From Actinomycetota bacterium (lineage in GTDB: Bacteria > Actinomycetota > CADDZG01 > JAHWKV01), in assembly GCA_030447305.1 (NCBI GenBank), contig JAUJPC010000003.1, forward strand, positions 124,001 through 188,000: DNA of 64,000 bases, in the 5' to 3' direction. A model generated the notes under the pieces. The model did no database searches. It was not told the origin of the DNA and worked only from the letters and a program-made list of their open reading frames with translations. Positions 58,915-62,561 of the stretch are shown in pieces. Both the position numbers and the translations under genes were made by a program. Each line of letters starts with the position of its first letter. Position 1 is the first letter of the stretch.

Positions 58915-59069
58915 TTTTTGTTCCTTTCCGCCGGCGCTCGGCCAGATCGCTAGAATCTCTATAGTTACTATCTAGTGGATATCACGGTATTCGCTTGAAC
59001 TCCTTTGTTCGTTGAGTTATTCCCGAGGGCGGGGCCCGGCTCGTGGAGAGCAGGAGGAGGTGTGGGACC

Positions 59070-60086
59070 ATGGTGGGCATGTCTGTCAATGCTGTCGAGG
59101 AGCCTCCCGATCTCTTAGCGTCGCACTCCGCCATCCAGATTCGAGGTCTCAAGAAGCGCTACGGGGAGATTCAAGCGGTGCGGGGCATCGATCTGGATGT
59201 GCCCTCGGGTGAGCTGTTTGGATTCCTCGGGCCCAACGGCGCGGGCAAGTCCACGACGATCAAGATCCTATGCACTCTTGTTCAGCCAACCGGGGGCAGC
59301 GCAAAGGTGGCAGGCTTCGACGTGGTAACGGAGCGCACGAACGTGCGCCGGCATATCGGGCTGGTCTTCCAGGAGCCGACCCTGGACGAGTATCTGACTG
59401 CCGAGCAGAACCTGCGCTTTCATGCCGAGATCTACGGCATGCCGCGCTCCGCCATTCCCGGCCGCCTGGACGCAGTCCTGGACATCGTCGGACTGACCGA
59501 CCGCCGCAACGACCGGGTCTCCACCTTCTCGGGAGGGATGAAGCGGCGGCTTGAGATAGGCCGCGGCCTGCTGCACTCGCCCCGAGTTCTTTTCCTGGAC
59601 GAGCCGACCATCGGATTGGACCCCCAATCCCGGGTCACGCTCTGGAAATACGTCGATCAGCTGAGGGTGCAGGAGCGTATCACCGTCTTTTTGACCACCC
59701 ACTACATGGACGAGGCGGAGAGGTGCGACCGGATCGCCATCATCGACCAGGGCGAGATAGTCGTGCTGGGTACTCCTGCCGGACTCAAGGCCGGCGTCGG
59801 CCAGGACCGGGTTCGGATTCGCACCGCCGACGATGCCGGCGCTGCCGCCACCATCGTCGCCCGGCTGGCCGCCAAGGCGATAGTCACCAAGGACGGAGTT
59901 GACGTGTTCACCGATGACGGCGAAGGCTTCGTTCCCCGACTGTTCGAGCTCGGGCTCAGCGTGCAGTCGGTGACCGTGACCAAGCCGACATTGGACGATG
60001 TCTTCCTTGCCTACACCGGCAACCGGATCGACGACGCGCCGGCGCACTCCCTGCCGCCCGGCCCGTGGTCGAGGAGGCGGGGATGA
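59070..60086 (+). CDS. ABC transporter ATP-binding protein (DrrA-type)
   Basis: About 338 residues. Walker A GPNGAGKST, Q-loop VFQEPTLDEY, ABC signature STFSGGMKRR, Walker B RVLFLDEPTIGLD, and the switch His in TTHYMDEAE. The C-terminal extension with VTVTKPTLDDVFLAYTG is typical of DrrA-like exporters of drugs or lipids. ATG at 59070 follows AGGAGGAGG. It overlaps the permease start by ATGA. Substrate unknown. Confidence 0.93.
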   Translation: MVGMSVNAVEEPPDLLASHSAIQIRGLKKRYGEIQAVRGIDLDVPSGELFGFLGPNGAGKSTTIKILCTLVQPTGGSAKVAGFDVVTERTNVRRHIGLVFQEPTLDEYLTAEQNLRFHAEIYGMPRSAIPGRLDAVLDIVGLTDRRNDRVSTFSGGMKRRLEIGRGLLHSPRVLFLDEPTIGLDPQSRVTLWKYVDQLRVQERITVFLTTHYMDEAERCDRIAIIDQGEIVVLGTPAGLKAGVGQDRVRIRTADDAGAAATIVARLAAKAIVTKDGVDVFTDDGEGFVPRLFELGLSVQSVTVTKPTLDDVFLAYTGNRIDDAPAHSLPPGPWSRRRG

Positions 60087-60955
60087 GCACCACCTCCACC
60101 GCCCCCGAGATGCAGGTCGCGCCGGTCCTGGCCCCGCCTCAGGGCACCTGGCAGGAGCTGAGAGCGATAAAGGTGGTCTGGAAGCGTGATCTGATTCGAT
60201 TCCGGAACGAGCGGGCTCGGATCTTCTCCAGCCTGATGCAGCCACTGCTGTTTTTGTTCGTGTTGGGCAAGGGTCTGGCCGCCGTGGTTCCAACCCGCAG
60301 CGGGACGGACTACTCTACCTTCCTGTTTCCCGGGGTCCTCATCACGGGGGTCATGTTCACGGCGGTCTTCTCCGCCGTCTCCATCGTTTGGGATCGGGAG
60401 TTCGGTTTTTTGAGAGAGATGCTGGTTGCTCCGGTGCGACGCAGCAGCATCGTCGTCGGCAAGTGCCTCGGCAGCGCCACCATCGCGACCTTCCAGGGCA
60501 TCATGATTCTCGCCCTTGCGGGTCTGGCCCACATCCCATACCACCCCGTGCTGCTTGCCGGGGGCGTGGTTCTCACCTTCCTGGTGGCGTTCACCGTCAC
60601 CGCCTTCGGGCTGGTGCTTGCGGTGCGGGTTCAGTCCTTGCAGACCGTCATGCCGGTCATGCAGCTGCTTCTCACGCCGCTGATGTTCCTTTCTGGGTCC
60701 CTGTTTCCTATCGGCGGCAACATCCCGGGATGGCTGGCGTTCATCACCAAGGTGAACCCACTCAGCTACGGAGTCGACGCCACCCGAACGCTGTTCTTTC
60801 ATTTCCTTCCGCCCGGGGCTACCGGGGGAGCGCTGGTAGGCGGCATCACCTGGTTTGGCTGGCTGGTGCCTGTCTGGCTCGACATCGTGATCGTCCTCAT
60901 CACGGGCTTCGCGCTGCTCAGCGTCGCCTGCGTCCTGTTCTCCAAAACGGAGTAG
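60083..60955 (+). CDS. ABC-2 type permease (DrrB-type)
   Basis: 290 residues with six hydrophobic segments and the ABC-2 signature: IFSSLMQPLLFLFVLGKGLA, DREFGFLREMLVAPVRRSSI, VMPVMQLLLTPLMFLSGSLF and KVNPLSYGVDATRTLFF. It is the membrane half of the exporter with the preceding ATPase. The short loop GTDYSTFLFPGVLITGVMF matches the family. Coupled start ATGA at 60083. Confidence 0.92.
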   Translation: MSTTSTAPEMQVAPVLAPPQGTWQELRAIKVVWKRDLIRFRNERARIFSSLMQPLLFLFVLGKGLAAVVPTRSGTDYSTFLFPGVLITGVMFTAVFSAVSIVWDREFGFLREMLVAPVRRSSIVVGKCLGSATIATFQGIMILALAGLAHIPYHPVLLAGGVVLTFLVAFTVTAFGLVLAVRVQSLQTVMPVMQLLLTPLMFLSGSLFPIGGNIPGWLAFITKVNPLSYGVDATRTLFFHFLPPGATGGALVGGITWFGWLVPVWLDIVIVLITGFALLSVACVLFSKTE

Positions 60956-60965
60956 CGGAGCCACC

Positions 60966-62561
60966 TTGGACCTCGTAGCGGGTTTCGGGCTCATCGGACT
61001 GACCGTCATTGTGTCCGGTCTGGTGGCCGGACTCGTCGACCGGGGGCCGATCTCATTCCCGATGATCTTCCTCGGCCTGGGTCTTGCGCTGGGGGCTACG
61101 GGCAGTCTCCAGGTGGACGCCCACAATCCTTCGCTCGAGGTGGTGGCAGCGCTCACCCTGGCCCTGGTCCTGTTCATGGATGCCTTCAGCCTGGAAGGGG
61201 GCGGTAGCCGTAAGGACTGGCTCGTCCCCGCTCTGGTGCTGGGGCCCGGCACCGGCTTGGTGATTCTTGTGGTGGCCGGCGCGGCCATCCTGCTGTTCGA
61301 TCTACCGCCGATCCAGGCCTTCCTGCTGGGAGCGGTGCTGTCCTCCACCGACGCGGTCGTGCTTCGGGATGTCGTGCGGGACGAGCGGGTTCCGCGGCCG
61401 GTACGCCGGGTGCTGTCTGTCGAGGCGGGGACCAACGACATCATCGTGCTGCCTCTGCTTCTGGTTTTGATAGCCGTCGCCGGAGGAAGAAACGCCGGAT
61501 CGAATCCCGCCGACTGGGCTCTGTTTGGAGTCCGGGTCTTTGTCATCGGCCCGGTTGTAGGCGCCGGAGTGGGGGCCGTGGGTGCGTGGCTCATGGCCCG
61601 GGCGGACGCCCGGTACTCGGTCCGGCGCGAGTACCAGGCGTTGTACGGCGTGGGGCTGGTTCTAGCCTCGTACGCCGCGGCGGTGGCTCTGGGAGGCGAC
61701 GGCTTCCTGGCGGCATTCTTCGCAGGCCTGGCCATCACGGCGCTCGACCAGACTCTGTGCGATTGTTTTCTGGAGTTCGGCGACGCCGCGGCCGAGATGT
61801 CGATGCTCCTTGCATTTGTGCTGTTCGGCGCCCTGCTCTCGCAAGAGCTGGGCTCGGTGCCTCCGCTCGCAGGGTTGGGCTTGGCAGCCATTGTGATATT
61901 CGCCGCCCGGCCGCTCGCCATAGGGACGGTGCTCAGCATTCGTCCGGCCGCCCTCAGTCGTGTCGCTCGGGCCTTCATCGCCTGGTTCGGTCCTCGCGGC
62001 CTGAACTCTTTGTTGTTCGCGTTGCTGGTGGTAGCCGGGGGCGTTCCCGGAGGGGAGTTCCTGCTCGCGGTAACCGGCATGGTGGTAATGGTGTCGGTGC
62101 TCCTGCACGGCGCAAGCGCGACACCGCTGTCGGGGTGGTACGGCCGGCGGGTGGCGACCGAGGTTCTCGCCGAGGAGCGTATCGGCACCGCAACCGGACT
62201 GTTCGAGCGCAATGACGAGTCCTCCGACCGCATCGGCGTCGCCGAGCTGGCTGAGATGATCCGCAGTGACGACCCTCCCGTCGTCGTCGACGTTCGCGCC
62301 CGGTCGCAGCAGGACCGGGACGGGGTCCAGATACCGGGCAGTGTGCGGGTGCTTCCGGGATCCGTTCCGGAGTGGGCCTCCACCCAGCTGAAGGACCGGC
62401 CCTATGTCCTGTACTGCACCTGACCGAACGAAGGCACCAGCGCCCGGGCGGCGCGGCACCTGAAATCTGCAGGGTTCCCCCGGGCTTGGGCGCTCAAGGG
62501 GGGACTGGAGGCCTGGCGCAACGAGTATCCGGTCGAGGAGCTGGCTCGGCCAGCCGTCTGA
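60966..62561 (+). CDS. Cation/proton antiporter fused to a rhodanese domain, with in-frame TGA at the Cys position
   Basis: NhaP/CPA1-type antiporter of about 12 helices: AVLSSTDAVVLRDVV, EAGTNDIIVLPLLL, and late AWFGPRGLNSLLFALLV. Residues 420-485 begin a rhodanese domain (VVVDVRARSQQDRDGVQIPG to YVLYCT). A TGA at 62421-62423 follows, but the same frame continues PNEGTSARAARHLKSAGF then WALKGGLEAWRNEYP to a stop at 62561. Relatives read YC-x-CPNE-x-TSAR, so TGA replaces the second Cys. Total 531 residues if read through. Selenocysteine, a nonsense mutation, or an error are possible. Confidence 0.85.
62440..62454 (+). promoter_or_regulatory. Possible bacterial SECIS-like hairpin after the in-frame TGA
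   Basis: GCGCC-CGGGC-GGCGC, 16 bases after the TGA; a G-rich loop lies about 25 bases from it, in the range of known bacterial SECIS elements. GC-rich coding DNA makes such hairpins by chance too. Confidence 0.35.

Follow-up and report, generated by a model that had tools for sequence, protein, structure and literature searches.

A predicted selenocysteine-containing rhodanese tail fused to a CPA1-type cation/proton antiporter

Analysis of a 64,000-nucleotide stretch of an Actinomycetota genome (contig JAUJPC010000003.1; hereafter "the window") reveals a gene for a CPA1-type antiporter with a C-terminal rhodanese domain, in which the codon at the rhodanese active-site motif is an in-frame TGA that very probably encodes selenocysteine (Sec). 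Our high confidence that this is a genuine selenoprotein applies to the Sec reading and to the antiporter-rhodanese architecture, and does not extend to any gating of transport by the tail. Sec insertion, the SECIS hairpin and the domain fusion are all strongly supported by the sequence comparisons described below.

An earlier note, prepared from the nucleotide sequence of the window, had drawn attention to the TGA immediately following YVLYCT and to 45 further codons that appeared to continue the rhodanese domain. Both observations are borne out: the TGA lies in an open reading frame that starts with the TTG at 60966, and translation across it (...RPYVLYCT-U-PNEGTSARAARHLKSAGFPRAWALKGGLEAWRNEYPVEELARPAV) adds 45 residues before the true stop, with the PF00581 match extending over both sides of the codon (Table 1). 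We found full-length orthologues of the fused protein, and its predicted structure has a mean pLDDT of 89.4.

Table 1. Features of the antiporter-rhodanese gene and their positions in the window
Feature	Position	Strand	Details
Antiporter-rhodanese selenoprotein CDS	60966..62561	+	TTG start; Sec = codon 486; stop TGA 62559-62561; 531 aa
CPA1/NhaP-type Na+(K+)/H+ antiporter domain, residues 24-388	61035..62129	+	PF00999, 1.9e-32
Cys265-Asp-Cys267 motif (LCDCFLEFG)	61758..61766	+	start of long antiporter-domain helix
Rhodanese domain, residues 426-519	62241..62522	+	PF00581, 6.4e-11
C-x-U motif: Cys484 (TGC), Thr485, Sec486 (TGA)	62415..62423	+	conservation counts
Predicted Sec-encoding UGA codon	62421..62423	+	in-frame read-through, conserved among relatives
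Predicted bacterial SECIS core hairpin	62440..62454	+	synonymous-codon test, folding, SECIS model constraints

Relatives were collected by searching the fused protein in the genomes of its class and phylum, and by scanning an alignment of the fusion against 84,980 species genomes, which yielded 80 loci; after removal of duplicates, 82 distinct fused relatives covered the TGA site. They come mostly from metagenome-assembled genomes and are distributed among Actinomycetota, Chloroflexota (including the marine SAR202 group), Thermomicrobiota, Acidobacteriota and a few other phyla. At the Sec codon TGA was found in 67 relatives, TGC in 11, TGT in three and TGG in one; the earlier note had asked whether close homologs carry TGA or TGC/TGT here, and the alignment thus contains both, with Cys in 14 sequences. 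The other three species of the genus (four in total; 80-82% identity) have TGA at the same codon, as does a relative from another family of the class (61% identity). Pairs of Sec and Cys in one alignment column are the classical mark of a selenoprotein family, and mapping of the Sec, Cys and other states on a tree requires five changes. Within the genus, codons 11-40 after the TGA exhibit pN of 0.09-0.23 versus pS of 0.41-0.67; judged by these rates, the stretch downstream of the TGA evolves as a conserved protein.

The earlier note had also described a GC hairpin with a G-rich loop 16 bases after the TGA and had likened it to a bacterial SECIS. The hairpin is present as described (GCGCC-CGGGC-GGCGC, with the stem 62440-62444 paired to 62450-62454 and the loop CGGGC at 62445-62449), and the likeness holds, both in the fit to the published model and in the conservation of synonymous codons in the TGA genes. 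The bSECIS model prescribes 3-9 nt for the loop, 4-16 bp for the stem, 16-37 nt for the spacing and an MFE of at most -7.5 kcal/mol, and loop position 1 or 2 has to be a G, often with G or U after it (PMC13188914); here the stem has 5 bp, G occupies loop position 2, the spacing is 21 nt, and the fold energy of -10.9 to -14.8 kcal/mol is within the limit. As the sequence is GC-rich, the energy of the single hairpin is not beyond chance when compared with 200 shuffles (z = -0.42; 64/200 fold as well or better), therefore we used conservation as the evidence.

Codons +6 to +10 are frozen in the 67 TGA genes (mostly AGC GCC CGK GYG GCG), with a codon entropy of 0.0-0.57 bits versus 1.7-2.3 bits expected from the genes' own codon usage, and the codons on both sides vary normally; these flanking codons and the Cys genes served as internal controls. 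The 5-bp stem is kept in 65 of the 67 TGA genes versus 3.6 expected (maximum 12 in 1000 synonymous resamplings) and the loop CGKG in all 67 versus 26.4 expected, counts that are inflated by relatedness, as the 67 genes are not independent. Although these genes use CGC most often for Arg, the loop Arg codon in the TGA genes is always CGT or CGG (67/67, versus 5/15 among the non-TGA genes, P = 1.4e-9), and the exact GCGCC/GGCGC stem is present in 53/67 TGA genes versus 0/15 non-TGA genes. In one relative (L153) a double change from C-G to U-A preserves the stem pair. In the organism's own genome, the antiporter-rhodanese gene is the only perfect match to the SECIS pattern; with up to three mismatches allowed, matches occur at a frequency near chance (191 versus 152 in the reversed control). 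A loop motif common to this SECIS and that of selD was considered; the loop of the genome's own selD hairpin is CCAGU rather than CGKG, and we therefore claim no common SECIS motif.

Two sequences from uncultured Dehalococcoidia illustrate other states of the codon. In a Cys-type gene (OY282458.1, L167:5001-6554) the hairpin can still almost be read from the codons (AGCGCCCGCGCAGCGC), the loop containing CGC, which looks like a recent change from Sec to Cys with a decaying SECIS. The only sequence with TGG at the Sec codon (OX638324.1, L152:5001-6569; AYCS-W-HRESS) has a degraded hairpin, and its active-site residue appears to have been lost unless the TGG is an error.

The machinery for Sec insertion, proposed in the earlier note as a check on the prediction, was recovered in full from the same genome (2.88 Mb, 98% complete): selA (517 bits), selB (327 bits) and selD (376 bits), all exceeding the curated cut-offs, and a tRNA-Sec with the anticodon UCA (RF01852, 77.1 bits versus the gathering score of 47; ARAGORN agrees). 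Among 13 genomes with a TGA-type gene, selA scores above the cut-off in nine, is fragmentary in two and has no match in the remaining two, which are incomplete; in the same selA-checked set it is present in 2/3 genomes with a Cys-type gene. The tRNA-Sec gene is located at G000:C7:60310-60400 (L017), and selA and selB adjoin each other at G000:C3:89477-92666. We had expected selA and selB beside the tRNA-Sec gene, and this was ruled out, the neighbors there being TadA/CpaE-type genes. The genome's own selD (G000:C4:131572-132504, L181) has an in-frame TGA at SHGAG-U-ACK, therefore SelD is itself a predicted selenoprotein. SelD with an in-frame TGA (SHG[GA]G-U-ACK where read out) was found in 18 of 24 genomes of the class, including this one (relatives L061 and L063-L066).

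From the window by itself, a Sec codon is indistinguishable from a genuine stop codon or from a TGC/TGT called in error, i.e. from a nonsense mutation, a pseudogene or an assembly error, and a product that ended at the active-site loop would still have its antiporter domain complete. The earlier note had accordingly named a nonsense mutation as the main alternative. We consider it excluded, because over 60 other relatives share the TGA with the four species of the genus and the sequence downstream evolves as protein. The codon recurs in genomes of the genus that were assembled independently as well as in dozens of other lineages, the protein constraint persists past it (see the pN and pS values above), and the freezing of synonymous sites in the hairpin is confined to the TGA genes, leaving mutation, decay or error with a negligible probability. 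A genome-wide reassignment of TGA (e.g. to Trp or Cys) would account for nothing beyond the read-through itself and is equally improbable: the same gene terminates with TGA, the orthologues have Cys or TGA at the codon in question with TGG in only one, and a dedicated tRNA-Sec(UCA) exists together with selA and selB.

Programmed termination or regulated read-through, in which the TGA mostly acts as a stop and the Sec-containing form is a minor, selenium-dependent product, has more to recommend it. Bacteria generally insert Sec with low efficiency, the antiporter domain is whole in the truncated product, and selenium status could set the ratio of the two forms. However, the 14 Cys relatives make only the full-length form, which argues that the full-length protein is the conserved product, and our search for a sequence feature that would serve a second role found none; we therefore regard this explanation as unlikely.

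In the predicted selenoprotein, the rhodanese tail can be assigned to a documented type. The C-x-U rhodanese (rhodanese-like form 3) is catalogued as a selenoprotein type (PMC13188914), which agrees with the statement of the earlier note that rhodanese-like proteins are among the families with Sec forms. Like the rhodanese-related (seleno)protein NF041203, the tail is a rhodanese domain in which Sec takes the place of the second Cys in C-x-C; however, the NF041203 model spans a 126-residue protein, whereas in the window protein the domain forms an antiporter's tail. Each of the 38 fused members scanned matches NF041203 (best 1.9e-30), and the window protein matches it at 2.6e-26 with 91.7 bits, i.e. 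without reaching the curated cut-off of 115. We have filed the tail as a fused relative of NF041203 and not as a member of that equivalog. The rhodanese/DsbD fusion-like selenoprotein TsoB (NF045694) is another Sec rhodanese named as a fusion (PMC13188914), but it has a different fusion partner and a U-x4-U motif instead of C-x-U.

C484 is invariant in 38/38 fused relatives. The assignment of the rhodanese active-site Cys varies with the alignment: an ungapped alignment (6mxv) places Sec486 at this position, while a gapped one (2hhg) places Cys484 there. In the predicted structure the helix after C-x-U begins at residue 487, therefore the active-site loop is atypical. In the same class we also found a second rhodanese with an in-frame TGA, with the pattern YCxDxL-U-DxSPRAA (L030, G015:C18:370676-371005, and L042, G007:C187:3814-4074), which is probably another Sec rhodanese.

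The best Foldseek matches of the membrane part are the CPA1/NhaP antiporters PaNhaP (4cz8) and MjNhaP1 (4czb) (E 5.5e-12), from which it differs in sequence (20-22% identity over the structural match) and in the addition of the rhodanese tail and a family-specific Cys-x-Cys. The nearest NCBIfam antiporter models are those of the potassium/proton antiporters PRK05326 (NhaP2/CvrA type, E 3.5e-40); however, the curated cut-offs are more than twice as high as the scores obtained, and the rhodanese occupies the place of the models' C-terminal part, which is unmatched. Residues D72, D129, E153, N157 and D158 are invariant in 38/38 fused relatives and R344 is found in 37/38; in a profile alignment they correspond to PaNhaP E73, D130, E154, N158, D159 and R337, with D72 replacing Glu73. 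These positions cover the PaNhaP ion site with its conserved neighbours, and the ND ion-binding motif is present together with the acidic ligands. An intact ion-binding site is strongly supported by the alignment, and the invariance of its residues makes the predicted cation/proton exchange activity likely.

Among the fused members examined, C265 is present in 38/38 and C267 in 37/38, and the Cys-x-Cys occurs in 0/21 unfused homologues; in the predicted structure the helix 262-297 begins near these two residues. C265/C267 could accompany the rhodanese through shared descent, should the fused members all derive from a single origin. Directly upstream of the antiporter gene (window 59043-60955) there are genes for an ABC transporter ATPase and permease, the latter ending about 10 bp before the antiporter start. 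A conserved operon was considered as a clue to function and rejected, as this ABC pair and a downstream spermidine-synthase-like gene are kept only within the genus.

In the mechanism that we propose, the UGA at 62421 would be decoded as selenocysteine via Sec-tRNA(UCA) brought by SelB, which would recognise the stem-loop beginning 16 nt 3' of the UGA. The product would be a CPA1 cation/proton antiporter with a C-terminal rhodanese tail carrying a Cys-Thr-Sec active-site motif, and the tail is expected to be cytoplasmic. Other CPA exchangers bear C-terminal regulatory domains, and by analogy we think that the rhodanese tail may regulate the exchanger. The C-x-U pair would act as a sensor or carrier of sulfane sulfur or of an oxidant, in the form of a selenenylsulfide or of a perselenide/persulfide. 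It would either exchange with the membrane-domain Cys-x-Cys or sense it, switching the antiporter on or off; cation/proton exchange would thereby respond to the redox or sulfur state. We infer this switching through the Cys-x-Cys as a serious possibility, slightly more doubtful than not. Somewhat more tentatively, the multi-phylum family as a whole may consist of selenium-dependent exchangers in which the Cys-Thr-Sec tail passes the sulfane-sulfur or oxidant state via the Cys-x-Cys to the transport domain.

Nearly as likely as gating is a reading that keeps the Sec assignment but makes the rhodanese a tethered enzyme on an otherwise ordinary exchanger, acting e.g. in sulfur transfer or detoxification at the membrane and exerting no control over transport. 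Known rhodaneses are mostly sulfurtransferases, and the domain and its Sec/Cys motif are intact. On the other hand, the retention of the fusion across phyla and the Cys-x-Cys found only in fused proteins point to a coupling of the two halves.

Transporters predicted to contain Sec include a cation-transporting ATPase E1-E2, the YeeE/YedE thiosulfate transporter, SaoP/SaoX/SaoB and Cu/Zn efflux proteins (PMC13188914). The antiporter-rhodanese protein resembles them as a membrane transport protein with Sec, but there is no cation/proton antiporter among them and for none of them is a fused rhodanese named as the site of Sec. In the 2026 catalogue of prokaryotic selenoproteins, C-x-U rhodaneses are entered along with some Sec-containing transporters, and there is no mention of an antiporter (PMC13188914), and our text searches of open-licence literature for selenoprotein, rhodanese and antiporter returned no report of the fusion, an earlier mention elsewhere being possible. 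None of the catalogues searched contains a cation/proton antiporter with Sec in its tail; the C-x-U rhodanese itself is known.

The family adds a selenoprotein architecture in largely uncultured Actinomycetota, Chloroflexota (SAR202), Thermomicrobiota and Acidobacteriota. When annotation reads the TGA as a stop, such genes are cut short and the rhodanese is hidden. If the proposed gating is true, it would constitute a direct selenium-based redox control of cation/proton antiport. The architecture provides a testable link between selenium/sulfur redox chemistry and ion homeostasis, with the natural Cys variants as controls.
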